Shown: one piece after another, positions 2,356-60,000 of the stretch | How positions within the stretch are numbered: the stretch's first letter is position 1 | How the letters are laid out: each line of letters begins with the position of its first letter | Source: Heliocidaris erythrogramma | Lineage: Eukaryota; Echinodermata; Echinoidea; Camarodonta; Echinometridae | DNA length: 64,000 nucleotides | Direction of reading: 5' to 3' | Assembly: GCA_025617745.1 (NCBI GenBank) | Contig: CM046868.1 | Span: 16,000,615-16,064,614 of the forward strand | Translations under genes and position numbers: made by a program | The notes under the pieces: generated by a model | What the model was told of the DNA's origin: nothing | Database searches by the model: none | Seen by the model: only the letters and a program-made list of their open reading frames with translations

Positions 2356-3597
2356 CCACTGGGCATTTTACCTGATATTACCCGGGTTGTAACAAGTAAT
2401 AACGTAGTTACCGCGGTAACACGGGGAAATAGTAGACCAATCTTTCCCCGTTATTACCACCCGATATTACTCCATTTACCATGATTTACCCAATATTACC
2501 CGTTATGATGTAACCGATATTTCCGGCATTTCCATGTTATCACACGATATAACTGCATTTACCCAATATTACCCGGTATGATGTAACCCGCATTGCCATG
2601 TTATTACTGCATTTACCCAATATTACCCGGTATAAAATTATAATATCACATTGTCTATAACACTATCTATATTTTATCTATTAATTTTACCTATATCCTA
2701 TCCTATCAAATCCTACACCTATAATCCTATCATAATCCTATCCTACTCCTACCCTATACTCTTATATATTAAAAGCTAGTATCTACTTTGTTATATAGGG
2801 ACTATATTATAGTGCGTGTTAAAAATGGTTAAAGATTACAAATTTCTAATTTTGGATCTAAAAATATCTCCACATAATAACATGTTTGAATATGTTATAA
2901 CCAATTAAAGCCATTCAACATTACCCATAAGTCCCATATTACCCCTCATCACCCTGTTGTATAACTCGGTAAAATGTCGGTTTCATCAGGGTGATAACAG
3001 TAATTTTTTGGACTTGAAAATTTCGCTAGGATTGATATGAGATTACTGTTATTACTCAAGTTTGCAATGTTATAACCAATTAAAGCCATTCAACATTACC
3101 ACTACCCCTCATCACCCTGTTGTAACTCGGTAAAGTGTCGGTTTCATCAGGGTGATAATATTGGGACTTGAAAATTTCGCTGGGATTGCTATAAGATTAC
3201 TGTTATTACTCAAGTTTGCAATGTTATAACCAATTAAAGCTATTCAACATTACCCATACCCCTCATCACCCTGTTGTAACTCGGTAAAATGTCGGTTTCA
3301 AAAGGGTGGTAACAGTAATATTTGGACTTCAAAATTGGGTTACGAGGTGCACCGTTTTTCAATTGTTTTTCTCATCAGAAACAGGTCCTGGCTGTGGGCC
3401 TGGAGGATCATTTACATCTTATCCTTATCCTCAAAATAACATATAGTAAGGAATTTATAACACTTTCATTATTACACAGGTAATATCATTTGGGTAATAA
3501 CAATATTGGTAATATTTGGTCTTAGTCAAATTTTGGGGTGATATTAGCGGTAATATCCGGTAATGTCGGTAATCGGTAACAAATTGCCCAGTGGGTT
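2356..3597. mobile_element. non-autonomous TIR element rich in ATTACC/GGTAAT
   Basis: The left end has CCACTGGGCATTTTACC and the right end has complementary GGTAACAAATTGCCCAGTGG. The outer few hundred bases are strings of GATATTACCC, TTACCCAATATT and their complements. The core (2894 to about 3370) has three tandem units of 150-175 bp starting at 2894, 3069 and 3223. Each contains AACCAATTAAAGC, CATCACCCTGTTGT and CTCGGTAAA-TGTCGGTTTC. No coding capacity is seen and the family is not recognised. Confidence 0.6.
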
Positions 3598-4141: not shown

Positions 4142-4238
4142 ATGGAATTATACCAAGCAGAGGATAACTATATCATCCAGGACAAGGATTCTAGCTTGTG
4201 GTGCAGTCGAGTCGATGGAAAGTTAATTCCGCAACCAG
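4142..4238 (+). CDS. INPP5F: INPP5F exon 1 (start exon)
   Basis: Codons 1-32 plus one base (phase 1). It reads [20 protein letters not shown] then a CSRVDGK stretch, matching the human start including the invariant LWCSR. The donor is CCAG|GTACCG. Two in-frame stops lie directly upstream, so no longer N-terminus is possible in this exon. The 33 residues up to AWNP in exon 2 have the same spacing as in human, so no exon is missing between them. Confidence 0.93.
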
Positions 4239-11400: not shown

Positions 11401-14400
11401 AATTAAGAAAAAGTATGTTGAAAATATTCTAAATAATAAATATTCACAGAATATAATGTCACTGATGCATGCTTTCTGTAATTCAACAGCAAATGAAACA
11501 GCTTAATTTTTACAGTGAACATGACTTGTATAAAAGTGTCCGGACACACAACCCCCATCGTAGCACTTCATTTCTTCTAATGGCATGGCATTCGATTTGG
11601 TGTCTTTTTTACCCATCCATACTTTGCCTGCAAAATGCAAATGTGTGCATTACACTGAATGAGTGGTTTCCTTTTTAGTGGTACTGTATAGAATCTAAAA
11701 TCTGGTAGCTATTTATACAAATCTCTTGATTTGAAATATTAGAAAAATACACTTTCTAAAGTGGTAAAAGATGACAAAAAGTGAGCATTTTAACAGCTCT
11801 TTTCTACCTGTTACCGCGTTGGCACAATTTGAGTTTTAGTCTGATTCGTCTCTGGTTTGGCTCAACACCTTAAGTCTGACAAGATTGAGACCGGTTCTGG
11901 TATCGAGCTACAGCACTATTTAGAAACCACCTGTACAGAAAGACCACCTGTTTGTAAAGACCACATTGTTTGTTTCACTTGAGGAATGTTTCTTATTGAA
12001 ACCTGTAGTAAAGTATTCATGTATTTGTACATATATCCTAAAGGCCACCTGCTTATAAAGGCCACATTTCTTGTCCAAAGTTCTTAAGCAGTCTTTATTC
12101 ATAAATGCAGGATCCACTCTATTGCAATGTTTTATTTGGGCAACATAATTTCAGTTGTTGTTCGAGCCCTAATTTAGTTTGATTATATTAATCCAACATG
12201 TAGACCTCAAGGGTGAAATTTGTATTTGAGGTTAAATGAGAATGAGCTTTATTTGCCTTGAGCAAGGGTTTGTTAATGTCCAGTTTCGCAAGTCTCTGTT
12301 AATGTCCAGTTTCGCAAGTCTCAATGTAAATTTTCTAGATTTTTTTGTCATGTTTTGAGCAAATGTTAAGTTTTCCTTCAGGAGACCACAAATACATGGC
12401 TTATTTCCAGGATTTGTGATCATGACTTTAAAGTTTCATACATGTACATACACTGTATGTACATGTATTTATAACTTTTGTATTACAATGTACATGTACA
12501 TGTATGTATGTCAGACTTTTCTCATTCATGTACATTGCACTATAAACTCAAAGGCTCGAATTCACAAAGGAGGTTTGGTTTAAACCATGGTTTCAACCCC
12601 CTCCTGGGGATTTTAAGCGTACGTGCGCACGGAATCCGATCCAATCATATATTTTCTTTGAGCGCGTGCATGGGCAATGTGCGCTTATTTACGCTCATTT
12701 CAGTACGCTTACCGAGGTTTAAACCATGGTTTAGGTTTAAACCTCCTTTGTGAATTCGGGCCAAAGTGTTTCTAAAGTTAAGATTGGAAGTTGAGATGAC
12801 ATAATAAAGTGTTTTGAAAATTCTCACACATTTGCCAATTCAAATTGACAACTGTCTTGATCTCTCATTAGATTACTTTTCTCTCCTTCATTCATTTGAC
12901 AGGGTCAGCTCTTGGTAACGCCTGGAATCCTGTATGTCTTGGTAAAGTGTTTGGAGTGATTGGCAAACTACGCATACATCCAGGTATGTACAGGTAGATT
13001 CATTACACCTTACTAAGTAGTGGGCTACATGTACATTAAACTTCTTCACATGAGCTCTACAAAGTACACACAGGTCTAGTAAAGATTTACGAATATGGGC
13101 CAGAATCTTACAATCTGAAAAAAATGTACATGTACATGTACCAAATGGTAGCATTCTATGGGTCAATGGTTATTAGAAGTATGAAGAAAGGATAACATAA
13201 AACCTAACATGGTGTATAAAGTCTGATTGTGATTTTAGATGCACAGACAAACCTAGCAGTTTTGCTTTTCGTGTCTTTCCCGCGCCATTGTGTTTCGCTA
13301 TAAAGCTAGATGTACCTTAGGGCTCAGCCACTACTGTGCACTTAATTTTTGAGCACCCCTGCAGGTCTCTGAGTCTGATATTAAAGCCCCAGCTACATGG
13401 ACAGGCAAGATGAAAAAGCTTTCTGTTGCTCTCCACACAGTGTAAGCAAGGTGCTTCCTCACTTTATTAAATGACAAATCTGGAGAGCCAGGCATTATCA
13501 CGTACATGTACATGTCCAGCTTTCGGCTTGCCTACGGCAGGCACTGTCATCAATTAGCGCACAGCAGAATACCCTGTACAATGTACATGTACATTTAAGT
13601 GATAGACTGATTGTGATTGGCCCAGGTGACCAGCGAGAGGCTGACTAAAGGAGATCTACATGTACATGTATATATTGCAGAGCTCTGGTACAAGTCATAG
13701 ATGTACATACATGTACATGCTAAAATCACATTCAATATCAAATTTTAGCATACCTGTACAAGATTAATTTCTCCCTTATAATCCCTCCCTTCATTAAAGA
13801 AGTACACATTTTGCAATTGACACAACTTTGCCACTTTTTGTTTTGATCTTTATCAATATGAACAAATTTGTGATTTTCCTTTAGCTAGTAGTATTAATGT
13901 ATTAGTTGTACACCTGTATGTAAGTATTGTGTTGCGGAATTGGGAATATTTGTCGAATGAAAGCATGTTGCTGATTGTGTATGTAGACAACACATCGGAA
14001 AGTAACTAATCTTTAGATTATGATAATTATTTTCCATGAATCTTTTAATTAAATGCTATAAAAGGTATTTGTGTACATGTATGATTTATTAATGCACAAT
14101 TCAACCATAGACTAGGATGCTTACAAAATATTGAAGGCACCTTTAATATTGAAGCAAGTACTAAAAGCTGCAGCATGCATAATCCATTAGAACTGTCAGT
14201 GATAAATCTATTGATTTAGAATCATCCCTATTCTAGTAGCAGAACTGCACTCTTGCCTGGCATGAATATTGTACAGCAGTGATGAGAGTTAATTGATTTT
14301 ACAGCCCGAAATGAATGAGTGCAAATGTGTGTGTGTGTTCTTGGAGACCATTATGACAATGTGCATTTAGTTAAAAAGAAATTCAGAAAAGAAATTCATA

Positions 14401-17400
14401 CATAATTTTGTGCATTAAGTTTTCCATGCTACTGTCATTCAGTCAACCAAACCTCAGTATGTTTTGCTTTTATGTTACCTTCAAACACTTGAATGTAGAC
14501 ATACTTTACAGTGTCAAATAGGACATGTATTGTAACTCATTGTACAGCAGTGATGAGAGTTAATTGATTTTACAGCCCGAAATGAATGAGTGCAAATGTG
14601 TGTGTGTGTTCTTGGAGACCATTATGACAATGTGCATTTAGTTAAAAAGAAATTCAGAAAAGAAATTCATACATAATTTTGTGCATTAAGTTTTCCATGC
14701 TACTGTCATTCAGTCAACCAAACCTCAGTATGTTTTGCTTTTATCTTACCTTCAAACACTTGAATGTAGACATACTTTACAGTGTCAAATAGGACATGTA
14801 TTGTAACTCATTCTTGAAAGGAATGATAACATATAGACTTTGTTTCTACACTCTATGTGTACATGCATCTGTGTCCTCTTATCACTGGGCAAAAATAATG
14901 TAAATCCTTGAAGTAGAGTAAGTGGAAAGAAAAGTGCTTTACAATGTATAAATTTGATTAAATTATAGTAGAGAACATTTTTTAATGGATATTTAGATTT
15001 CAATTGGATGAACTTAAAGTCTTTGTGTCATTATGGAGCAGAAATAATAGTTTTTTTGTTCTTGAAGTTTTGTTGACAGACATTAGGGCAATTCCATGGT
15101 AACGGAAGGACATTTAGACACATTTTACCAACTTCATACCATAACTACAATTAAAAAAAAAACATTTGGCAGAACATTTGAAACATCAGAGATGTAAGCT
15201 TCGATCAACTAACTGCCTTTGATTTTCAAAAAAAAATTATGTTATTGCCAAGCAGTAATGAAATTTGCATATTAATGAAGTCGGTAACGGAAGGACATTT
15301 TGATTCAGTAATAAAATTTGCATATTAATGAGGTCAGTAATGGAAGGACATTTTGATTTTTTTAAAATGTCCTTCTGTAATAACACATTTTTGATGGTTC
15401 AAATGTTCTACCATTCAAAAAAAAAATTGTAGTTATGGTTTGAAGTTGGTAAAATGTGTGTGAATGTCCTTCAGTTACTGTAGAATTGTCCATTACCACA
15501 TGAAGATTACAGCTTCATGCATTTCCACATTTTGATTAACATTGTACTTTAATATTAAAGTTTATTGGTAAAGTGAAGAAAATTGCATATCATTTCAATA
15601 CAGAGTATAGTAAAAAAAAATATTTGTGTACAATCATATTGTATATTCCAGGAGTCATGGTGTACATGTACTGACGTTGAAAACTGCTTGTACAGATGCT
15701 ATCCATGTATACATGTACATATGCTATCCATGTATACATATGTACATGTACCTACATGTAGGCTAAACAAGTCTCTGTACTACTGTACTGTAAAACCAAA
15801 AACTTTCACGAATCGTTAATGACAGCCAATTTTGCAGCAAGAAAGTTGTTTCAATTGTGATTTGATTATTTTCGCGGCATGAAACTTTCGCAAATCTCGA
15901 TTCTCGACCACTCGCGAAATTTGCAAAAAAAATTCTGGTTTACAGTACGTGTACAGTGTACATGTATGTGTGCATGATATGAATTTAATCCACAAATCTA
16001 CCCAGTTTAATGCAAGAAATAAACTTGCATTTTACATGCTTTTGTATCTACATGTACATTAGAAAGTAAGAAAAAAAAAATGAAAGAAAAGTATTACACT
16101 GTTCTGTTGCATTGCACATGTGCAGTATACATGTACATTCACCTTTTGTGTCTTTATCTGCCCTAAGGCAATAGTACAAACAAAGAGCAAGTAATTTCTG
16201 AAACCTCATGTCAGTTGTCATGGGAACTTGGCCTTTTATGTGACGTCTGCTTCAACAGATCTGTCTAGAGTGCATTGTTTGAAGAGCCACAAGTGTGGAG
16301 AGCCTGGTAGTGTGTTCACATCTTTCTCAGATTGCAGAAGAAAAAAAAATCTATCACCAAAGAAGGATATTTTAACCAAGTACATGTATTTCAGCTGAAT
16401 CCCTACTCTCTAATTCATGATTGCATTTATTTTTACTTAAAGTTTAATCATTGTATGAAATTATATTTATGTTTATCTTTATTTATTTATGTTTATCTTC
16501 TGAGATACGAACGAAATACATACATATACATGTAGTATATATATCACTCTTTCCTTCTCCCCATTCCTCTATGATCTCAGTATCTTTCTCTCTCTCTCCT
16601 TCTCTTTCTCTTCCCCTCATTCTTGCACTCTTGGTCCTACCCTAACAATCTGCCTCTAATACCTTCTCTCCTCCTTATGTGGACCATGCGTTTCCATGTC
16701 AACTGATTTACACACTAAATGTGAACATCAGAACATCTACAAAATTTATAAAGTCACATGTATTTTATTAAAAATGTGTCAATATTGAGTGTGTTTGGAC
16801 TGAGTAAAGCACACATCTGAATGAAAATCTTACAGCTGGAATGCTGCACATTGTTGTTATTTTGAAGTTTACATACATTCATACATAGTCTACATGTACA
16901 TGTATCCCATTTTAGTAGTATTTGTTTGTTAATCAAATTTATTCTTAATTCCAAATTAATAAAGCTACAATACATGTACATGTATATTGACCTGAGAGGT
17001 ATTCCACAATGATGCTTAAAGTTTACCTTTAGGGGAGTGATTCTTAGTTAAGGTGTAAAAATCTTTTGGTTTTTAATGTTAACTTTACATTATTCAGGTT
17101 TGAATATTCAGGCTGCATAATGAATCCTTGTATTTAGGCCTTGGCTTAGGAAAAGCGTTATTATTTGCTGTCAAATGCCCATCTGAAGATTAAATCTCAG
17201 GAGGAGAGGGGTTCCTTTTCCCAAAGAAGTACTATGATTCTCAAGGTTATTCAAGAAGTATTATTAAAAAGATCAGTATACGATAGTGCTTGGCTTGTTT
17301 GAAGAGGTGTCTGCTCCCGGAGATGATAGTGAAAAAAGGCCGGTTGTCCTTTTAAATTTTGAGTGGCTTGAACATTTCTAACTTTACTTTGGTACTCCCA

Positions 17401-17704: not shown

Positions 17705-20700
17705 AATTAGAAGATGTACAATGTACAGTAGTGCTTTCATATCTACTTGAGATGTGGATTGAACGTTTCCTTTCTATTGAATCAATAGTTTCGAAGCTTA
17801 CATGTGTGTCTTCAGTGTTGTTGATGGAACTACCATTATAGAGAAACTGGCTCTAAATTGATTATCATACAGTAGATCTGGAGTTTGGATCAGCAAAATG
17901 TAAACAAACTGACGAAAACTTGCTGGAAATCCCATTCACTATTACCACATGTTCTGTTTGCTCCACACGCTGTTAGGAAGACTACAGTGTACACATTGTA
18001 CAGTATCTTGATTTTCTTTTCTTTCTTTGCTCATTACTCTGAGCTATCATATTTTGTACCAAGTTAACCCTTTCAGGACAGGAATTATTTAAGTGCTAAA
18101 TTGATCACAATTTGTTCTTCAAATTGGCAACATTTTTCTTTTAGTGCTACACGGTTCTAATATAAAGGTGTAATGTCTTTTAAAACAATATCCATGTACT
18201 GGTTAAGAATTTTGTCAAAATATTTTAAAGCTGCCAGTTTTGATATAAAACAATGATTTTAAATCTGGTATTGTGTTGCCAATTTAAGGATTTAAAATTT
18301 ATTTGTGTTTCTAAAATTCCTGGCATCAAATGCAATATGGTCATGCAACAAAAATGGACATAGTGTGTGCAGAAATTTCTGCTCTTTCTACTCATGCATC
18401 TGGTATATTTTTTAGAGCTCTGAATCAAAATTTATTGAGCCAAACCACAAAATACTGTCACTTGTCTTGAAAGGGTTAAAAAATGAGCAAAAGTTTGAAT
18501 CTGAAAATGTACTGGGTAGGGAACATTAAGACCTGGAATCGAGTCAGATTAACCCTTTCAATCCCAAATTATGGTGAAATGTTCAGATATGTTCTGTGAT
18601 TTTTTTCTGCACTATTTTCATACTAAATATGACAGAAATTTTTTAAAAAGTGGGAAAAAATGTAGTGTTAATTAAATCACTGAATAGGGACTCAAAAGTC
18701 CCATCAGACAGGAAAGGGGTGAAGAATGCATGGCATTTTTTTACAAACAAGCTTAGTCTGATCTGGAACTGAAAAGTCCCGTCGGCCTTGAAAGGGTTAA
18801 AAGAGTGAACTGGAATTTCAGTGAACAGAAAATGTGGAATAAGTGTCGCGATGAACCTCCAAATGGAGAGAAGATGTCATTATCGATATTAAAATAGATA
18901 TGTACTGTACATGGAGTGCAAAAGAACTTATTTTATATTTTCATCAATGCTTCACATATATGTACACAGAACTTCCGAGGGAAATGAACGCCAGGACAAA
19001 GATGATCTCATGCCAGAGTCTACTGTAAACGCTGTTATTTTCGCGCTGAGCTACCCCAAAACATATTTGCGGGTTCTTGAATTCGCGCTGCACAATTACT
19101 CACTCGCAAAAATGTTGTAAACTCCATTTATTGTTTCACACAAACATGGTCCATTCAAATGCAGGCTACAGACACAACTACACACGCACTCTAAAATGAA
19201 TTGGATTCAAACATGTATTATTCAGATGAAGCGCGCAATGCAGCGTCCATTCAAAAAAAGCATAAGAAATCGTGCTAATATTTTCGCGTGTTCTAGAATT
19301 CGCGCCCGCCGAAAATAGTGCGAAATCTGCAAAAATTAATGTAACACGAATATTTCTGCAATTACAGTAGTTGAAATAGAGACTGAACATGAACATGTTG
19401 CTGTTGAGCCCTGCTGTTGAGCACTGCTGTAGAAAGGAAAATACCTGCTTGTACATGTGCTATTTGTACATGTTGGTTGTAAAAGAAATTCTTTTTTCTT
19501 CACCAACAAACACATAAACATATGTAGGACAGAAATGAATGCCTGTAAACAGGGGAAAGTACATGCACATGTTTACCAAAAGAGTCAGAATGGAGACTGC
19601 ATAAAAAGTTGTTGTTGAACCCTGTTATAAAAAGAGAATACATGCGCATATACTTACATACATGTAGTTTGTAAGATTCTTTTTGTTTTTGCAATTAACC
19701 CACATAATATATCTTAGAAAAGAAATGAATTCTGGTACAAAGAGCAAGTAGACCAAAGTGTTCTCATGTTTTCATGATCTTTATTATTAAAGAGTCTGAC
19801 AGGAGACTGAATGAAGAAGTTGGTATTGAGCCCTGCATACAAAGGGAATACCAACTTATTCTAGATTGCAAAAGAAATGATTCTAGTTACATATCTACAT
19901 GCATGTACAAATATCTGAAGAAGCAAATGAATGCTGGTCAATGTACATGTATAGAAGGAAAGCAGAGAGTAGTATGTTTTCAAGATCCTATTTCAGAGTC
20001 AGAATGAAGACTGCATGAAGGAGATGGTGTTGAGCCCTGCTTATACATACATGTAGAAAGGGAATATACATTTACATCTTTAATATGCAGGTTGCAAAAG
20101 AAAATATTCTAAATTTTTTCATCAATACCTATGGCTTCATGGAAGTTTACATGTAGGATTGAGGAAGGAAATAAATACCAGTATAAAAGAAAAAGAAGGC
20201 CACAGTTGTCTCATGTTTTCATGATCTCATTTCAGAGTTGGAGTGGAGACTGCATGATTAAGTTGCCGTTGAGCCCAGTTAAAGAAAGGGAATACCTATT
20301 TGTACATGCATGTTGCCAAAGGAATTTCATGTATTATTTTTTTTGCATTAACACCCATATAACATACCTAAGGAAAGAAATGAATGCTGGTACAAAGAGT
20401 AAGCAGGCCAAAGTTGTCTCATGTTTTCATGATCTCATTTCAGAGTTGGAATGGAGACTGAGTGAAGAATGAAACAGAATACACACTTACATGTACATAA
20501 ATGTGTAGTTTGCAAAAGAAATTATTCTACTTTTTGCAACAACAACCACATACATGCATGCTAGACTGAGAAAAGAAATTAGTGCAGGCAAAATCATTCT
20601 CATGTTTGCATAATCTCATTTCAGAGTCTGAATGGAGACTTCTCCTCATCCGCAGCCATCGTCTAGTGGGGCAGCTGCCCCGGGGACATGATGTCTACTG

Positions 20701-23700
20701 CATCACTCGCATAGCTGTTCTACCGCTCTCCCAAAATGGACATCCAGATATAGACATTGAGGTATGCATTGAGGGGTTGTACATTATTTCTACTTAAAAA
20801 CAAAGAGGGGGGGGGGGGGGGGGGAGGGGGTTAAATGCTTAAGGCATCTTAATGGTTTTTTATCATCCATTTTTAGCTTTGTCTGTACATGTACATGTAG
20901 TTCTTTTTAAGAGCTGCCATGAAAAAAAAAAAGAATTCTTTAATACTTTCATTGCTGTTTACCACACTCCCAAAATGAACATCCAGATATCGACATCAAG
21001 GTACATGCATTTTGAGCTTGTACTTGTTTGTAAATTGATGCATTTCTTGAAAAGGGATATAGCACCTTACATATTGTGTCTATTTTTTCTGTAAACAGAA
21101 TCTTTTATAATGCTCCCATGAACAAATGGAAAAATAAAATAAATTCTGACACATGTACATGTAGTTTACTACCTTTCTTCCACTCTCGTCAAATGGACAT
21201 CCTATTGGCATTGCTTTTATTTAGGATTTTAGTAGATTTTGCAGAAAACTTTCCTTATCCAGGGATAGTTTTATATTACACGCCCTCTACTTCTACATGT
21301 ATGCACACTTGCTCATACACTGTAGTAGCATACATGTAGAAAATGGTGTATTGACAATTGACTATGACACTGATTTTTTTTAAAGGTGTACTTGTAAATG
21401 AATGTATTATACATGTATGGCTGTGTGAATTCAAAGTCTTTTCCTGACATATGATTGAAGTGCATGAATCTTTCCTGAAAAGATTTCAGTAAAACTAAAT
21501 TTTTCATGTAGTATTTACAGGATAATGCCTTTTTCTACTTGTGCATAATATGTACAAGTACAGTACATGTACATGTAACCTTTTACTTTGGTGAATTACA
21601 AAATGCCTTAAAAACTTGTGGCGGAAAAAGAAATTTCATACTATTAACCACTTAACTGGTATTGGGCTTATTACACATTGATAGCCTGCCCTCTGTGCTA
21701 CAGCACTTTTTTGGTATTACAGTATTTTCACATTTTTTATGTTTTGGAGTTTTATCATAAAAATTTGGTTATTTATTGGTTATAACATTAACAATTGTTC
21801 TAGCTATTGTTCAAACCCTGTATATCATAACAGCAGTGCTACTGGCGTAAGGGGGCAAATCAATCGGCAGTGCTATCATTCTGAATGTGCAATAGCCTAA
21901 GCACGTACATGTACGTGGCACGCACCGTGAGGTGAGATTGAGAGCACGTACATGTACATGTATGTGGCACGCAGTCAAGTGGTTAACAGAGATGCCAACT
22001 ACATGTAGTACGATTTTTATCTTATTTTGTACGATAAAAAAAGTAAAATACGACAATACGATATTGCCTATAAAAAATATGATTTCCCAATCTTTTTCCC
22101 CATTTTTCTTTTCGTTCTTTAAAAAATAAAACAAACAAAGACTCAGTTTGGGAGTTATCGCACTTCTCTCACCGGGGGGACCCCTCTAAGAAAGCAATTA
22201 GGACGGGTAGGTCCGTTACTTATTGCCGACTCAATAGAAGTCTGTGGTATTCGTCTCACATTATTTTGTGATAAGTACCCTGTGCCAGTTCTAGGAGTGG
22301 TACCCACTGTATTGCGATGCATTTGTATGTGCTCCACATACACTCAAAATGACTGCATGACTTGCGGTTTCGCAGAGCTCACCCCTAAATCCTAGGGTTG
22401 ATTTTGGTCCTGAGTGACATTTTTCAGAACAAAAAATGTCAGAAACTGTATTTTTGGACTTTGTTTGTCCCTATTTATTCTGTATTTAGTTCAAAACTGA
22501 CGAAATTATTCTTTATTTCGCCAAAACTCCGTCATGACGGCGCTGGTAGTCAGAGCTGTTCTCAACAGCCTTGGCTGCCTGAACTTCGGGGAAGGAGTCC
22601 TCAGTAAATGCCCCACTGAGCTGCTTATTTGAAGAAATTTCAGTTTTGGAAACACTTTACTTATCATCATTTATTTGAAAACTACATATAATATATTTGA
22701 GTAGATGATTGACACATTCTTACCAAATTTAGACTTCCCCCGAATGAAATGTAAATTATATGTACATGTACTTCTGCGTTTTCAAAACACTTATTTTATT
22801 TCTAAGGTATGAGAAAAACTACAGTGGTGTGATAGTGTACTATATTTGTTTGTGACTTAAAAAGCAAAGTTAGTCTCTTTAATAAAACACATATGCACAT
22901 CCAAGCCTACACCAAACCTTACACTCGCATGCACACATACCACAACCCACAGTGATACGAAACATTAAAAGAGCATCTTAAACCCCTTTTTCTCTTTTTT
23001 TTTTTTTTACTTTGTAGATTGAATGACGGGTGACAATTTAAGATAACAATTAAGCCCATCAAGTGGATCAATAGTTGACTGCTGTTGAATATATGCAGTT
23101 CGTTTCATATTTCTTATTTCAATTTGATTTTTTTTCCCCAGTACCCACAAAATGTCAAAAATATTAAGATCTTGGGGTTGGGCAGGTTCCCTGGCAAAAG
23201 AGTTTGTGTGAAGCCCTGTAATAGCCTTATTTTTTTTTTCACATTTGTATTTTTGAAATGTCTCTTTTTTAGACACTTTTATGTTTTTCTTATAATTCAA
23301 TTTTTTCATTAGATGTCTGTGAACACTTTAGGGTCCTTATTTTCATCATATGGTGTGCTAATAATGCATGTCACATTCTTTTTCGCGAAAATCTGATTTT
23401 TGTGTGGAAAATCTGATTTTTTAAGGCAACCAGTCTGTTTTTTTGTGTTGAGAGGTTGGCATTTCTGTATTAATGTGAACTTAAGATAGAAGGATTGGTC
23501 GATTCCAACCTCAAAACCTTTTAGCATTATAACGTAAATAGTACACTCTTAAGCCTATGTTTGTCCTTTCATAGATTTGCCAAAAGCGTTTAATCTTCCC
23601 CATTTACGTCAAAAGACTGTCTAAATAGAAATGCTCTTTCGTAAATGTCATGGCAAAAAACTGTGGCAAATTGCTTCCATTAGACGATCTTTGAAAACAA

Positions 23701-24502: not shown

Positions 24503-27500
24503 TGGAGAGGGGGTCCTTTCATCTTCTTTTTTTTGGTTCCCTTTCCTTGTTCTTTTTCTTTGTTCTTAATTTCTATTTTTGCCATTTGATTCGGGAGGGG
24601 GGGGGGGGGGGTGGTGGCATGTGTCCACTGCCTCCTGCGTCCCCTGTACATGTAGCTACATGTACATGTACACCACTGTTATGATTTGAAAATATAGCCT
24701 GCATTTACATGATATATGCTGGTTATTATGTGAGACTTTACATGTATTACCATCGTGCACCTTTGGACTCTACTAGTACTTGACATGATTGATGAGACTG
24801 TTCATCTCCATCTCACCCATCTCATGTTTCATCTGAAGGACTCTTCCTCTCTTGGGGTCTGGGTATTGTTGTCATCTCAAGTATTTAAAAACCTTGGTGA
24901 TGAGGAATCGGAAGAGCAGTATCCCCTCTGCAGTCTAGTCTATTACTACAGTCACTGTTACTATAATTACTACCACCCTTGGCAGTCATTATGCAGGGTC
25001 TGGATGTGAATTATCCATTCCGTAGGGGTCGGGCTAACTCGGCACTAGGGCGAATTCGGCATCACACAACGAAAAGTCCTAAGAGTTGTAGTGCAATCTA
25101 CACACCGGATCACTAAATAGCCATAAATTTCCTTTTTGATACAATTTAACCTCTTGAAATTTTTAACACTACATCTTTAGTAACTATTTTTTCACATTTC
25201 CATCAAATAACCTTGAATGTGGATGTTAAAAAATATGTACTTAATGCAAAAACTGTAGTATTTGCGATCGATTTTGCTGTTTTGGATAACTCGGCCGCGA
25301 TTTCCGCTGAGTCTGAGTTGGCCCTAGTACCGGATCCATTCCGTAGACTATACATGTACACATCAGACCTGTAGCTGGTCACAGATCAAATTTAGGGTCT
25401 GAGCTACATGTACATGTACATGTATGTAGCTGCTCAGGAGATTTGACATGAACATGTGTACTTGTACTTGTACATTTCTGGACAAAGTTGTTCACAAATT
25501 AAATGCGGGGTCTGAACTATGTGAGCAGGAGACTACATGTATGTGTCTATACATGTACATGTAAACTGTGTACTGTAGCTATTCAAAAATCTACGTACAT
25601 GTACCATAATAGGGAGGGCTAGCATTGCTTTTTGCGACTTCAAATTTGGGGCACTTTTGGTTTTGCGGTAATGATATCCTTATGAGACTGTACGTGCTTT
25701 CCTTGTCAATCAAGCTTGCGCAATTAATCAATGTATAGCGTCTCAATGTACATTCATTGGGACAATCCTTTTCCTTCTCATTGACATAATTAGTAATCTC
25801 ACTAGTATGATCATGAGAATCTCTTATGATTAAAACTATAAATCAAGCTCTTCTGAATTGATATGAAAATGTTGGCCTTCGTGTCTGTAGGACACAAAGG
25901 TTTTCCAGACCCCCCCCCCCAACACTTTAACATAGACTCCTGCAAGGAGTTGGTTGAATTCCAAGGTAAACAGAGATGAGTTTTCAAAGCATAAAGTCAT
26001 CAAAAACAAATTTTTATAACTAGTAGGCTGAATGAAATGATTTTTTTTTCTTCAAATTGGTTAAAATGGCTCCTACATGTACATGTACATGTACATTCAT
26101 TCTAAGAAACATAAAATCTCCATAAGAGTTATTATTGCTACATGTACATGTATAATTGTAACTTTGCATGAAATAAAATTCACATTTGGGTAAAGAGTCT
26201 GCCTGTCGAACCCAAGATTGTGGGTTTGAATCCAGCCCCCCGGGTGGATGACTGAACTATGCGTTATGTGTACACAACATTTCATAGAGGCAGGCTGTGT
26301 TACAGTGGAAAACACTCCATTCCTCGGATAGTATGTTAAATGGAGAGTCGCCACCTTATAGCACGTTAAGAACGTACTGCACTGTTCAAAGAAGAGTAGG
26401 GGAAACCCCATGGTATTGGGAGGTACACCTGGACATCAAAATCAGTTATTCTGGGAGGAGAGACCCAAGGGTTACAGTAATTCGCTTTCCCCTGCCAGGC
26501 ACAGGTGACCCCAAATACAATAATAACAATGATAATTTGTATCGCCCCCCCCCCCCCCCCTCCCTAAATTTGCCCTTTGGAGTTTGTATCAAACATAAGT
26601 ATCACCTGCCAGAATAAGTGACACCTTGCTTCAAATGCAGTGGAGTAGGGTGCATGGGTCCAGACATTGAGTGGGCACTGGCATCATTTACAACACATTG
26701 TCACTGCCATACAATGTGCTAAAATGTATTCAGAAATGCCAAGCATTGGGCCTGAAACCATCGATGCAGTACAACTCTTTGGTACAGTGTGGTACAATGT
26801 GCCACAATGTACCTGTAGGAGACACCAGTGGATGAAGTGCACATTATGGCGAAGGTGTAGGAGGGGGTTGTAGCGTTTTTCCTTTCTGACCCCTTTTGCC
26901 TTCTTCCTTTTTATACACCCGCCAAACAAAGTTTGAAGGGGGTATATACATGTAGGAATCAGTCGATGGTTGGGCGGGCGGGCGGTCGGTCCGTTGCAAA
27001 TCTTGCGGATCGAACTACTTCCTCAGTTTTTGACCAAAAGTCATGAAATTTGGTACACACATTGGTCTTGGTGGGAAGATGTGCAAGACATATTTTTCGG
27101 ATGAGTTGGAATCTGCGTTGCCATGGTAACGGCATATTTATGGCAGAAAATCAAGGAAAACAGCTTGCGGATCGAAAGTTTTTGACCGAAAGTCATGAAA
27201 TTTGGTACACACATTGGTCTTGGTGGGAAGATGTGCACGACATATTTTTCGGATGAGTTGGAATCTGCGTTGCCATGGTAATGGCATATTTATTGCAGAA
27301 AATCAAGGAAAACAGCTTGCGGATCGAACTACTTCCTCAGTTTTTGACCGAAAGTCATGAAATTTGGTACACACATTGGTCTTGATGGGAAGATGTGCAA
27401 GACATATTTTTCGGATGAGTCGGAATATGTGTTGCCATGGTAACGGCATATTTATGGCAGAAAATCATTGCGGATCGAACTACTTCCTCAGTTTTTGACC

Positions 27501-30500
27501 GAAAGTCATGAAATTTGGTACACACATTGGTCTTGGTGGGAAGATGTGCAAGACATATTTTTCGGATGAGTCGGAATCTGCATTGCCCTGGTAATGGCAT
27601 ATTTATGGCAGAAAATCAAGGAAACGCCTTGCGGATCGAACTACTTCCTCAGTTTTTGACCGAAAGTCATGAAATTTGGTACACACATTGGTCTTACTGG
27701 GAAGATGTGTGCAACATATTTTTTTGATGTGTCGGAAGCTGCGTTGCCATGGAAACGGCATATCTATGGCAGTAAATCAGGGAAATCATGTACACTGCCC
27801 TACAATTTGCTACAATGTACTTTGGAGTTCAGAAATGCCAAGCATTGGGCCTGAAATGATGCAGTACAACTCTTTGCTACAATGTGCCACAATGTACTTT
27901 CAAATTTTAAACCTTTGAGTCTGAAATGACGCAGTCTGTTTTACAGCAATCGCCGTACAGTCAGCTGTTCTATCTGAACTCGTCCTGAAATCCCTTTCCA
28001 ACAACTCAAATAGGATTACCAATGGGGTAAATGGGATCAAATCTAATAGTAACATCAGCCTTTGAATCATTGCGTATAGCTAGAAATAGCCTCAGTACAG
28101 TGTAATCGTTTAATGTAGTGACAGAGGAAGAGGATAGTTGTAATTCATGGTCATGAATTTTGTAATATGTAATAATGCAGTGTCACTCATACATTTTAAT
28201 CTGTTTATGAAATAATATCCCTTTTGTACTGGAAGTTAGGGCACTTCAGAGGCACCCTATCTTCCAACATAAAATTAGGGTTAAACAATTTAGGGGTCCT
28301 AGATTTAGGGTGTCCTAGATTTAGGGTGCTCTAGGGGTTGTTTCAGGTCCGCTTCTAAGGGGCTTCAACAGCAGTATAAAAAAACATTCATAAGTATTTA
28401 AGCCATTTTATATTCAGTGACCGTATAGCAGATACTGTATACTGCTTCCTGGTGTACACTGTAGTAATGCTTTAATATCGTGTCCTCATGTGGCAACTGT
28501 ATTGGTCTCATACAGACTTTGCAGAGATGCCAAGTTTCTAAACCAGCTGGGAGTGAGACCCTGCGAGGGAGTGTGGGAGGGTGGCCGTCTCCCCCTCCCA
28601 CGGTAGGGAGATTTTTAGCTCACCCGAGCCTAAGGCTCGAGTGAGCTATTGCGATGGAAATTTGTCCGTCGTCCGTCGTCCGTCATCCGTCGTCTGTCGT
28701 CCATTAACTTTTTACATTTTCATTTTCTCCAAAACCCATGAGCGGAATTCAACCAAACTTGGTAGGAATCATCCTTAGGGGTAGGGGACCCAAAGTTGCT
28801 AAAATGGTACATGTGGCCCCCAGGGGGCCCAGGGGGAGGGCCCCCAATTGTAAAAGCTATGTAAATTTCAAACATCTTCTTCTCCAGAACCAGGTATAGC
28901 TCAGACTTGGTATTGTGTATGGAGATACCTCTATAGATGAAGAATGAATGTTGTTCATGAAATTTCTCTGAGTGGCCCTATAGGGGCCCTGTGGGGGTAA
29001 CATACTGGAGGGGGGGGGGGGGGGGGGGGGGGCGCTGCCAGGCAAAATGTACATTCTGATCTTCTTCTCCAAAACACATGATCGGAATTCAACCAAACTT
29101 GGTAGGAATCATCCTTAGGGGTAGGGGACCCAAAGTTGCTAAAATGGTACATGTGGCCCCAAGGGGGGCCCAGGGGGAGGGCCTCCAAGTGTAAAAGCTA
29201 TGTAAATTTCAAACATCTTCTTCTCCAGAACCAGGCATAGCTCAGACTTGGTATTGTGTATAGAGATACCTCTATAGATGAAGAATGAAAGTTGTTCATG
29301 AAATTTTTCTGGGTGGCCTTATAGGGGCCCTGCACCAGATGTGAATTGATCCACCTCAGGTGAGCGTCGTGCTTCCTGGGGCTCTTGTTTATTTTGGGAT
29401 ATAAAATTGTGTGATTTGGTGCATACATGTACGTACATGTATACAAACTTTATTACTTAACTTGATAATAACAATAAGAGAATTTTGTATGTATTGCATC
29501 ATTGAAAAGAAAAGGTCCAGGCTTTAAAAGTCTGTGTGAGATTGTACGAGATACAACTGATTTTATTCAGTCGACGAATCAAAGACGAGAGCAAACAAGC
29601 ATCCTCAGTTTCTAAGGTTTTAATAAAAACATTCAATTTGATAAACCACATGTGTACACATTATATGCATGATTGTAGATCTGTTGTATATATTTTGTCT
29701 TAAAAATTGAGGAACATAAATTCCTTACCTTTCACCTTATTTACTGCAATAAATCATATATACCTACCTATTATGCCTGTAGTCTTGACTACGGGACCCC
29801 TTCGAGAATTATCACACATGTGTCACAAAATTGTGCGCACCCCCCGTAATCCTATTGTCCCCTTTGCCACTCACGCGCGTCAATACGCTACGGCCATCTT
29901 CCTCTTTCTTGCTCGCCCCCGACGAGTTAGGACGTATAGTCACAGCGCTCCTGAAATCAGGTCGTATAGTATCTTTTTGGTGCGCTTTTTCGCATAGTTA
30001 AAGCACTTTTAGGTACCTATATTCGTTTAGATTATAGTACTTTGTGTTTTATTAGTCACTCTTGCCGATTGCAAGGGATTTTTTGATTCCCTTTCTTGGC
30101 ATTTATTTTTCTCTTTCACGGTCAGCCCCACGTAGATATTTCCGTGTTTGCGGGTGTTTCCGTTTGTCACCGAGCCTTCGGGTTCGGTGTTTGTTCTTAC
30201 GGTTTAGGCTGTGAAAATTTATTTAGTGCGTATCTCCCAAATAAACTTTAGTTTTATTTACTGCATTCAGTTGAAGTATTTCTTAATTTGAAAAGTATAC
30301 TTTATTGTCTGTTTTATTGCAGTGGTATGAATTCGGAAGAAGAAGCAGCTGGGTCAAGGAGACCTGCTTCTTCCGAAGAGTTGTCTAGCAAGACGACTCG
30401 GCCTTCCAGAACTCCCCCGAGTACAGCGGTACGCGGGGGAGGGAGGAGGGCTAAAGGTAAGTTGCCTAGTGGTGTTCCCTTGCAGAGTTTGCCAGTTTCG

Positions 30501-39500: not shown

Positions 39501-42363
39501 CCAAAAATGAGTTGAATGGAAATAAGAAAGAAGAAAAAGGAAGAAAGAGTGATTAAGATCAGGAAAGTTCTGAGCAGGTCAGAGAAGTTTGGAGAGAGTA
39601 GTTCTGAAAAGAACTGTTTGTATTCCTCTTTAGAGTAGTTCTGAAAGAAAGTTTCCGAACTACATGTATGGTAATCTTTCGGTAAAGGAGTATATCTGTC
39701 TCGACGCATTTCGAACAGTGTGCGCTGTTCATCGTCAGGAGATTAACTTGAGGAAAACTGCAGTTTTAACAGCCTTTTCACAGAGGCTCCCACATGGTGT
39801 TACCGAAAACCTTCAATTGTGAACAATCAGTGTTTATATATCAGGGAATCATACATGGATTTATAGAGCAAAGGGATGTACATACATGTACATTTACATG
39901 TATACAGTTATGTTTATTGCATCTCAGCACAGCACTTATAATTGAAAAGAACTACAATATAATTGAAGCACTTGTAAGGTGTAAGGTGTCTAGTCCTTGA
40001 TTATCATGTTTGTATTAAACAGGATGTTATGTAGCCCTCAGTACGTCATTCTCGAATCAACCTCTTGATGACTGCATGAATTTCCTCATTCTTATAGACT
40101 TAATACAGGAACCACCCTGTCCAATTACCCTTATTGTTGTAACAAATTAATGAGCTACATATACATTATATATTGAGATGTAGATATGCACATGTACAGT
40201 ACATATCTATAACAATTATCTCATATAGTTTGATGTACGGATTTCAGATTAGGCTGAGATAATTAAGTTGCTTGGATGTACATTATATGAACTTCAGAAA
40301 TATTCCTTAAAATTCTTTCAACTGTTTTGTAACTGTTTTTGAGGGTGAAATGAATATACATGTATTGATGCAAATGACTTTTGACTCTGATGTTTATACC
40401 AAAATGTGCATCAATAATTGTACTTTTGAAGGCTAAAATGGAGCTTACATTGTATGTATGGAGCTGTATGTGGTCAGATTCCAACTAGAAGTTTCATTGT
40501 CATTCCGGCTTAAATTTTTTCTCAAAGTTACATCATTATTACAATTGCTACTTGCTTTAATTAGCTTTCGGCACACTGTATGCATGTATCTACATGTAGA
40601 AGTTCATTTTGCATTTTGCTATGAAGTGCATTTTTAATTTTGCTATGTGGTACATTTTGCATTTTTGCTATGTACAGTGTAGTACATTTTGCATTTTGCT
40701 GTGTGATACATTTTGCATTTTGCTATGTAGTATATTTTGCATTTGCTATATATACATTATTATTTTTGTGGTAAGAAGGACATATAATATCATAAAAGCA
40801 AGGTATAATTGCTGGAATTGGTATTCATTCAATGAAATACAAAGACAAATCATTTTTATAATTTTGTATGCATATTATAGTACCCTTACAGAAGCTTGGT
40901 CTAATAATTTTTTTCCAGGGCTGTACATGTTACATTTTGCTATGAAATACAATTTTCATTTTGATAAGTACAGTAGTACAGTTTGCAATAAAGTTCTGGG
41001 TTACAAGGGTTGAATAGGAGATGAATATGAATTGCATTTAACTGCCATCCCCCCCCCCCCCCCAACCACCAAGTGATTTTCACTCTCCCTTCATTTGGCT
41101 TTCTACAAGTGGAAGAGAAAACTAAAGAACAGAAGGCACAACAAAGACATTCACAGAGCTAATAAAGCGAACCGAATATTGAATTTTTATTGAAAAGGTG
41201 CTCCAATCACGATGTTCATGGAGCGTAAGCAAACAAGTTCATCACTGCCTGTTGCAGTGGCCGTGAAGTGCACTTTCTATTTTTAGCCGAGCTCTGTAGA
41301 ACATCTCAAATGGCATTGTGACGTAAAACGAACCCCTGAAATATCCACCTTGGTAGGGTTGAGTTCACATGCCAGCTTGAGCTAGGGGTTAACCTCTAGG
41401 GACAAACTTGGAATAATCAATAATGATATTCACATAATGTAACCTGTATCCTGTTAAGATTATTATGTGACAGTCCCTGAGCTAAAGTTCAGAGATTTCT
41501 CTTTCCATGATGGTGTTGATTTCAGTGGGATCGACACAGTGCAAAATAAAGTTAAACCCTAATGAATAATTTGCCAAAGCATGAATCTCTTTTAATGCAT
41601 ACCATCATGTGTCAATCGGAAGGGCACAAACATACATTTGGTCACACTTTTCTTTTCCTTTTTGTTCTATAGCAAAAGGATAAAGAAATATAAATCAAAT
41701 ATACCTTGCACTGAGAGGCACCAGTTGAAATTATGGATTCTCTGAGGTGACTGGTATAGCACTATTTTCTGAGGGGCACAGCCCCGAAGAAAATAGTAAC
41801 TATGCCAGTCACCAAGGAATCCATAATTTCAACTGGTGCCTCGAAAAACGTGCATGGTATATTTGATTTACTATAGCCATCTTACCCGTATCGCGATTTT
41901 TGAAATGGAGCGTTTAGTGCATAAACGTGTTTAAGATGTGGGATTTTTAGGCAGGAAAAACAGGATATAGTACAATTTTTTGGACTTTTTGTTGCTATGA
42001 TGTACAGCACTGTTGATTTCCTATGCGCGCGGAGAAGTTTATAATCGATTATGTTCATGATCGACTGTATGTGTTATGAAACAGTGTTTATTTTTACCTT
42101 TGACCCCAGTGATGACCCCAGTGACGTTTTAAAAAAACGTCACTGATGTACAGCACTGTTGATTTCCTATGCGCGCGGAGAAGTTTATAATCGATTATGT
42201 TCATGATCGACTGTATGTGTTATGAAACAGTGTTTATTTTTACCTTTGACCCCAGTGACGTTTTAAAAAAAAACCAACCCCTCAAGGGCAATTCTGGGGT
42301 CCCCCTACATACACCATCCGAGTTTGGTGAAGATCTGTCGAAGGATCTAGGAGGAGTAGGGGA

Positions 42364-57000: not shown

Positions 57001-60000
57001 CCACGATTTTATGTGGATCAGACTGAATAGACTTATCAAATTATTATCAATTATCAATTATTATCTGCTAGACCACAACACCTCTACAGTGAATTAATTA
57101 GATTTTGTTTTTTTTCCTTGACAGACTGGTTTTACTACAGTCCCACCGGTGACCTGACCAACTCTATCCAGAGACAACATACCCATAGAGATGCAGGCTT
57201 TGATGACAGGTTCTTCTGGAATCAGCACATGCTACAGGACATCTTGGATGCTCAGGTGATTGTCTCTTTAATGCAAACCAACAACTGTTTGCAAAAATAT
57301 TAACATGGCAAAATAAAACCATTATTATACATTTACATGTAAAGGAATGGCAACTTTGGGATCTAAAAAAAGTAGCTGCTTGCAACCAAGGTCCCAAAGC
57401 ATCATCAGTAATCTGTGTCTAATTTTATCTAGTACATGTGCCTCTAGAACAGTTCAGGGAAAATATTTGTGTATCAATTGCTTTTAAATTTGTATTGAAA
57501 GTTCCCTTTTTCACAACGACAACCACCATGTGACACTTATGCCTTGTTCACACATGACCCTGCAAACTGCCTCAGAAAAGTTCCGCTGCCACAACATAAA
57601 ATGTCGTAAGTGTAGTGTGCTTCATATTTCTGTGGTCATATAATATTTGCTACAAACAGGTACTTTTTTCATTCCCGCTTGCTATACATTTGCACATCAA
57701 AAATGTTTTTATTTGTCTGCATTGGTTTTTTGAAGTGGTTTCTGGCTCTATGCTCTCATTGACATTGAGAACAGGGACACAGTGAAGCATGGAAGTGAAG
57801 ATTCACACTGATTGAAACAGGATGTGATTGATCCTGAGGAAATTAATTAATTAAACTCTAAGATGACATTCCTCTGTCAGGTGATGATGAAACACAACGT
57901 TCTTGAAAAGTCTCTCAAGATTGCAAGGTGCTGACAATATTCATGTTTCTATGATAAAAAACCCCTCTCTGTAAGGGCCTCTTCTACACTATACTACACT
58001 ATAGTATACTGCACTGCATTAAACAGCACACTATAGGTAATCCATTACCCTCTATATACATTGGCCCCACATTTTTCTCTCACAGTCCTTTTTGATTGGT
58101 AAATGTACATGTATGTGCTGACAATTTTCAAGCTTTTGTCTTGTATACCTATACAGAAGGGTTACCTGTCCGTAGTATATAATTTTCTATCACACTTTTT
58201 AAAGGGCCCCTGCAACCAAATGCAACCCAAATGCAAGTTTTTTGCTGTTGATGTGCAGGGATGCATCCAACTAATATTTTATTATTCAAACATCTAAATA
58301 GATTTTTAAATATTTGTTGAAATATTTTTTCCAACCTCCTAAGCTCCACCCTAAAAAAGCTCCAGATCCCATTCCTGTAATGACATCATCTGTCAATCAT
58401 CAGTCAGCTACACTAACATTCTACAATAGACAGTGGAATGTAACTTCCCCCAGCTCAGCACATGCTCACAATAGAATTGCATGCTTTCGAACAATACCTC
58501 CTCATTACCATTTTTTTCTTGGTGATGCTACAGCATGTCTGACATAGCAACTACTTTGTGGGCTTTGTATGGTCTAATAGAACAGATGGTCATCTCTGGC
58601 AAAGCTACATACCACTGTGTCTCTTTAGCTCACTAATGATTGGCCGATGATGTCACTGCAGAAATGAGATCTGGAGCATTTTTTTAGGGTGGAGCTTAGC
58701 ATGTTTACAAATCTATGAAACATATTTAGATGTTTGAATAACAAAATATGAGTTGTATGCATCTCTGCACATCAACAGAAATCAACTTGCATTTGGGTTG
58801 CAGTGGACCTTCAAAGACTGTCATGATTGCTAAATGCTGACAATGTACATGCGTCTTCATGGTATACCTCTATAGATATAAGGACCACGTGCTTGTAGTG
58901 ACCTACTCAATTATCTCCCACAGTACTTAAAAAGTTTGCTAGGTGCTGACAAATTTCATGCTTCTAGTACATTGAATGGGTTCAATTATAATGTTATGTG
59001 CAGAATAGCCTCCTTTACATACAGTTTAGTGGCCAGTTCATTTTCTCCCAATGTTCTTTAAAAAAAACAAAAAAAAAAACTCTCAGAGATTCTAGGTACC
59101 ATAAAACGGGATTATAGGAACAACGGGTGAATAGGAACAAAAATTTTAAAAGCTACCTGACAAAATATTTTTCCTAGTATTGAAGAAGACCCTTTTTACT
59201 GTTTCATTAATAATGAATAAAATAAATATAAAGGGTCGGCATCACCTCTGGGGATGAAAAATACAGTTCTTACAAACTATCAAAATTACTAGTATTTAGA
59301 ATTTTGTTTTGCTTTTCTTTTCAAATTATGATTATCATATCCTTTTCCCGCCTGCTCTTTGACAATTCACTCACTTCAGAAATAAAAATATACATATAGA
59401 ATAGCAATTTTCTGGGAAAACAGTAATCTGTATCGTTGTGTGTGGGGTTGTTAATCTGAAAGTGAAACTTACATGTAGGGTTATTTATAGGTTGTGGCAT
59501 TAATAATTCAATTTACTTTTCATATTTACCTGTTCGTCAATAGCCAACGTTATGCTCACGCTTTTGTAGGTGTTATGTGCTCAACAAGTTTTATTATCTT
59601 GTAAAAGTTCTGATCAAGGAATAATTATCCTATCAGATTCTGAGGCTAAATTGTGCTACATTATTATTTATTTATACAGTACATGTACATGTTTTATTAT
59701 AGTGTCTTTTGGTTCAGAGTATGAATATGGAAATCTTCTTGTGATATATTCGAACCAGCAAAAATACAGAAAACTCAAAATTGCAAAAAAAAATATAAAA
59801 GCACACGTAAACTCAAGAGACAAGGAAGTACATGACATATGATAATTAGAATAAACTACTTGTTGTCATATTAAAATTATAAGAGTATGTTGTTAGTAAT
59901 ACCTCTCATGTCACACTGAAACTATAGGTATATTACATAATTAATTTCCTGAAAAATATAAAGAACTCGCCTTTGATTTGTGTACCATGAACTTCAAGCA

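Follow-up and report, generated by a model that had tools for sequence, protein, structure and literature searches.

Exon 3 of the INPP5F gene of the sea urchin Heliocidaris erythrogramma lies among repeated copies of its own borders, which raises the question of how such an arrangement arises and whether the extra splice signals affect the expression of the gene. We analyzed this locus within a stretch of 64,000 nucleotides of contig CM046868.1 (hereafter the window, to whose first letter all positions refer). The genome includes a 12.9-kb contig whose cytochrome oxidase I contains 11 TGA codons in frame; under genetic code 9, its AAA codons coincide with conserved asparagines and its ATA codons with conserved isoleucines, which suggests an echinoderm. 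The window gene was recognized as INPP5F/Sac2 by its SAC-domain exons, which follow one another in order on one strand. Pieces of human INPP5F align in order between positions 4142 and 63991, although the last of them does so only with an E-value of 0.78, and a profile search placed Syja_N (PF02383) above cut-off at 57076, 60907 and 61468. Exon 3 itself (20625-20761, plus strand, 137 nt, phase 1 in and phase 0 out) is 47% identical to the human protein over 51 amino acids by tblastn and encodes 46 residues when the last base of exon 2 is included. Its real signals are the acceptor TTTCAG (AG at 20623-20624) and the donor GAG/GTATGC, the slash marking the border here and below. Joining the end of exon 2 (CATCCAG/GTATGT) to the start of exon 3 (AG/AGTCTGAATGG) restores a reading of 13 residues, and the exon is flanked by long introns of about 7.6 and 24 kb. 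The ordered protein matches and the splice borders thus bear out the initial annotation, which had assigned the exon to INPP5F as its third.

Upstream of the exon, six adjoining units of 217, 210, 204, 239, 208 and 181 bp fill positions 19382-20640 of the plus strand. They align end to end, are 62-77% identical in pairwise comparison, and each of them ends in an AG followed by a 16-base piece of exon 3. The last unit is the functional one, and it supplies the real acceptor and exon bases 20625-20640, exactly as had been proposed from inspection of the letters. Besides the real border, the main array therefore contains five AG/AGT borders, with spacings of 210, 204, 239, 208 and 181 bp, and the identity of the units to the functional one drops steadily with distance (73, 72, 70, 69 and 67%). 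The full motif TTTCAG/AGT occurs at 19997, 20236 and 20444 as well as at the real site, 20625, in agreement with the earlier count of at least three such copies. The acceptor border matched its upstream flank with a score of 67, whereas none of 500 dinucleotide shuffles exceeded 28. With direct repeats lying side by side and each including an intron-exon border, the array is a border-spanning tandem duplication. Seven repeats of about 180-240 bp had originally been described; the periodic units are real, and six of them adjoin (181-239 bp), the seventh being a partial copy detected at 18897-19010 by nhmmer with a profile of the 5' units (E-value 1.6e-9), outside the interval 19370-21215 first delimited.

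This outer copy is separated from the main array by an interspersed element of 345 bp (19023-19367, no strand assigned), which resembles a MITE in its short length, its inverted ends (CTGTAA...TTACAG), its target-site duplication (TA on both sides) and its many copies. Among 1182 first-look candidates in the genome 40 matches were scored, itself included, and the 39 other copies are 88-93% identical to it. When the flanks of the element were joined, the outer copy extended to 19020 and included the AGAGTC of the border, so that this older partial unit (18897-19020, plus strand) ends in CCAG/AGTC where the MITE-like element starts. The two profile hits stayed separate after joining, with 20 unassigned bases between them, and these bases contain a remainder of the GAGACTG type, paired with the next unit (19374-19404). 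Because of this pairing, the element was likely inserted within the exonic piece of the outermost decoy, and it arrived after the outer copy was already there.

Downstream of the exon, the last ~50 exonic bases recur on the plus strand at 20950-21003, at an offset of +239, followed after 21000 by a decoy donor, AAG/GTACAT. Positions 20721-20764 and 20960-21003 are 86% identical over 44 bases, and the likeness continues into the intron to about 21032, with 80% identity over 85 bases. A second and weaker copy, which is the third instance when the exon itself is counted, lies at 21170-21213 of the same strand (offset +457, detected over about 21175-21213 with 76% identity and an E-value of 6e-4). 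The initial annotation had reported a duplication of the exon end together with its GT donor at 20957-21002 and, more weakly, near 21170. Both copies are indeed present, but the GT is kept in the +239 copy only and the weaker copy has no GT donor. The donor border scored 66 against a maximum of 24 in 500 dinucleotide shuffles. No copy of the middle of exon 3 was found in 18500-22500, nor any within 1.5 kb. The profile of the 5' units detected nothing on the 3' side, and a common ancestor of the two arrays was accordingly rejected.

The original sequence observation is correct and somewhat understates the structure. We consider it probable that two local tandem duplications, one across each border of exon 3, produced this structure, and that the resulting array is tolerated and largely inert; it looks like ordinary tandem duplication and not like a designed switch. 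On the upstream side, the repeatedly copied segment would have measured about 205 bp, of which about 190 bases are intronic and 16 exonic; on the downstream side, the segment would have measured about 239 bp, with about 50 exonic bases followed by intron, and would have been copied twice. Since such a duplication ends inside the exon, its geometry alone would leave the exon-proximal copy fused to the exon body and working, and all the others stranded as intronic decoys. The decoys have since diverged, and the MITE-like element landed at the outermost one. An origin of the 5' units as copies of a mobile element was rejected, as no other copy was found in the 1.06-Gb, 26-contig genome among the best candidates scored, the sole match being the array itself; off-locus matches of the array search were limited to query positions 299-340, which correspond to a G-rich stretch of intron 3. 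An assembly artefact is hardly likely, since the array is diverged. No structured RNA was recognized in 18500-21500 by Rfam models at their gathering score.

In order to compare the strength of the duplicated signals, we scored them with a crude matrix of roughly vertebrate splice-site frequencies, in which the real acceptor reaches 7.78, the decoys at 20236-20251 and 20444-20459 (both TTTCAG/AGTTGG) exceed it with 9.69, the decoy at 19997-20012 (TTTCAG/AGTCAG) equals it with 7.78, and the two degraded borders at 19793-19808 (TTAAAG/AGTCTG) and 19583-19598 (CAAAAG/AGTCAG), all on the plus strand, fall to 4.55 and -0.42. The same crude matrix gives 7.46 for the real donor and 5.29 for the decoy donor after 21000. 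The decoys at 20236 and 20444 also carry CTCAT at -23 like the real site, have one more yUnAy match than the latter, and contain 12 pyrimidines between -20 and -5 as compared to 11 at the real acceptor. The branch consensus being kept in the two top-scoring decoys, weak branch sites, which had been suggested as a reason for silence, cannot account for it there; the suggestion may hold for the decoy at 19997, where no yUnAy match occurs in the last 45 bases.

The strength of these two decoys speaks for the possibility that the copies act in splicing control, spliceosome parts assembling on them so as to promote intron retention or stop-containing isoforms and thereby reduce the output of INPP5F, much as the OGT decoy exons discussed below. 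Two candidate cryptic exons and the long flanking introns also fit this reading. The first candidate (20236-20398, 163 nt, donor AGA/GTAAGC, score 5.5) would meet a stop nine codons in when placed after exon 2. The second (20877-21000, 124 nt, acceptor 9.8, donor 5.3) would be open after exon 2 but in the wrong phase for exon 4, and would run into stops after exon 3. However, the alignment indicates that the donor of the first candidate is absent from the other units, and the outer decoys have decayed. Acceptors of the real score are moreover not rare: 29.5 kb of flanking intron has 45 of them among its 1671 AGs, and the 1.25 kb of the array has 4 among 99, one of the 4 (20091) not being a border copy. 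Such sites are thus denser in the array than in the flanking intron, yet common enough in the latter that score alone does not set usage. Among 1815 GT sites of the flanking intron, likewise, 78 score at least as high as the decoy donor and 21 at least as high as the real one.

The pattern of conservation within the units bears on the same question. No part of the unit is better kept than the border piece, whose mean identity is 0.856 compared to 0.668 outside the last 50 columns; it ranks first among 175 windows (P 0.007 by column permutation), keeps this rank when the decoys are taken alone (0.839 vs 0.672, first of 185 windows), and contains 13 invariant columns out of 18 against 41 of 111 elsewhere (Fisher P 0.009). 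These statistics are to be read with some reserve, given overlapping windows, the lack of independence between neighboring columns, and a remainder of the unit that is AT-rich, of low complexity and gappy. Neither the five decoys of the main array nor the outer copy have lost their AG, so that there is no sign of decoys being destroyed. In the first 3' copy, 14 in-register codons differ from exon 3 by four synonymous differences and three residue changes. Neither the well-kept border piece nor this pattern over a few codons proves constraint, but both are hints of it and against simple neutrality. Weighing this conservation and the strong decoys against their decay, the common real-grade acceptors and the occurrence of like border copies in unrelated genes described below, we regard a role in splicing control as unlikely.

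Tolerance of an inert array can be accounted for under the preferred reading of two local duplications. With such long flanking introns, the exon would be recognized as a short acceptor-to-donor unit, and this would favor the 137-nt exon over extensions of 181 to 1042 nt. In-frame stops occur in all five decoy-acceptor extensions of exon 3 and in the decoy-donor extension, and transcripts extended in this way would be expected to be degraded. The decoys would then be tolerated because a short, stop-free exon comes only from the exon-proximal copy.

To place the locus in its genomic setting, 83 exon sets were compared, comprising 74 control loci, among them three stretches of INPP5F that the window contains too, and 9 of the 12 mapped INPP5F exons, the last of these having only 537 bases of 3' flank. 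The sets correspond to 80 places, 71 outside INPP5F and 9 inside it, and the 71 control loci are uncurated profile matches that include some near-duplicate pairs, long open frames, and matches that contain stops or span introns. A copy overlapping the exon was detected within 1.5 kb in 6 of the 83 sets, namely exon 3 and loci L037, L056, L067, L074 and L083. At four of the 71 controls outside INPP5F the copy covers part of the exon: L037 has a single upstream copy (offset 892), in L067 the donor border is copied at +1387 and an internal piece at +252, and the match at L074 is weak (E-value 2e-4), while at L056, a myosin-head exon on the minus strand of contig C6, the acceptor border and roughly 60-100 exonic bases are copied three times upstream (offsets 242, 461 and 606). 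One of these three copies appears, as judged by eye, to be open in the frame of the exon. The fifth control locus with a copy, L083, carries a copy of the whole exon. Copying of both borders without the middle had been called unusual. Border copies at other loci show that the genome makes such structures repeatedly, and it is the two-sided form that was found only at exon 3 among the 80 places, exon 3 having been chosen for that very feature.

Tandem repetition is common in this genome. Of 100 sources, each about 3.2 kb long (20 tiles of the window, 71 exon loci and 9 loci of the MITE-like element), 42 gave a total of 98 self-matches, and 12, the INPP5F array among them, had at least two repeat pairs at offsets of 100-400. 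Other tandem arrays of the window, with units of about 146-271 bp, lie at 27002-27785, 14268-14812, 2940-3336 and 41998-42271; matches of 99% in the array at 14268 make a recent origin probable for it. Exon borders are not enriched in such repeats, as 3 of 142 exon-match ends fell inside local repeats compared to 2073 of 36991 flank positions (5.6%), in a test where match ends lie only near true borders and where the strict count took L056 and L083 and left out L037, L067 and L074. A special link between repeats and borders is thus not supported. Matches of nearly equal score to the deubiquitinase domain UCH (870 bp) were also observed at 12 places on many contigs, in long open frames of 625-1981 aa, which suggests that this domain is carried by a multi-copy element; the same is suggested for protein-kinase matches of equal score and length at 10 places on many contigs (open frames 654-1453 aa).

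The three border copies of the myosin locus L056, set beside INPP5F exon 3, allow a further conjecture, that such acceptor ladders are recurrent in this genome, that selection or conversion preserves their copies, and that these adjust exon recognition by sequestering splicing factors; we think this distinctly improbable. An alternative exon 3 ending in the downstream copy can be given still less credence. The native reading is largely kept over 14 residues and followed by a GT donor, the ratio of four synonymous to three changed codons does not argue for free drift, albeit in a tiny sample, and 20877-21000 is open throughout if spliced after exon 2. Going upstream, however, the native frame of the copy meets a stop at 20941, and the sole AG in the open stretch after that stop scores 1.2; from the best upstream AG (20877) the copied piece is read in another frame, and the 124-nt exon is in the wrong phase for exon 4 and encounters stops when it follows exon 3. 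A downstream alternative coding exon is hence not supported on grounds of frame, phase and stops. That the copies are remnants of complete exon duplications of which only the borders are still recognizable would agree with the copying of both borders but is extremely improbable, since the 5' units align over their full length without the exon middle and the blank result of the unit model on the 3' side indicates that the two arrays are different segments.

Border-spanning duplication as such is already known. The account given in PMC4974935 describes a potato RdRp gene in which tandem duplication of an intron-exon border led to a new intron confirmed by RNA reads. The potato case, as described there, involves a single duplication, with the upstream exon providing a cryptic donor, whereas INPP5F has at least six copies and a separate 3' array and its gene structure is apparently unchanged. 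In the duplication system that the same paper summarizes, local tandem duplication supplies extra splice signals as it does in INPP5F; the segment there lies inside an exon, whereas that of INPP5F spans the border and the new sites fall in an existing intron. Decoy exons in OGT intron 4 are reported to promote intron retention (PMC12017769); they and the INPP5F decoys are both intronic splice-site-like elements, perhaps recognized without inclusion, although the OGT elements, in that report, are cassette-like exons that have both sites and were studied by experiment, while the putative decoys of INPP5F are mostly lone acceptors. In C. elegans, CeRep25B intronic minisatellites have been linked to alternative splicing (PMC4039745) and share with the INPP5F array the occurrence of tandem repeats in introns near exons; CeRep25B is described as a dispersed 24-base repeat, in contrast to the single-locus unit of about 205 bp containing an exon border. 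Among publications on intron gain, decoy exons, intronic minisatellites, sea urchin repeats, duplicated splice sites and internal duplication, judged mostly by title, we found none on a multi-copy two-sided border array. Given the potato precedent as described in PMC4974935, we regard the multi-copy, two-sided form at INPP5F as a variant of a known process.

The locus constitutes a natural experiment in splice-site choice. Four TTTCAG/AGT acceptors are present within 630 bp, and two of the four are apparently equal to or better than the real one, which is distinguished from them mainly by its position relative to the exon body and the donor. Silence of the decoys in RNA would favor exon definition over the local strength of sites, whereas their use would make short tandem duplication a direct source of new splicing variation.
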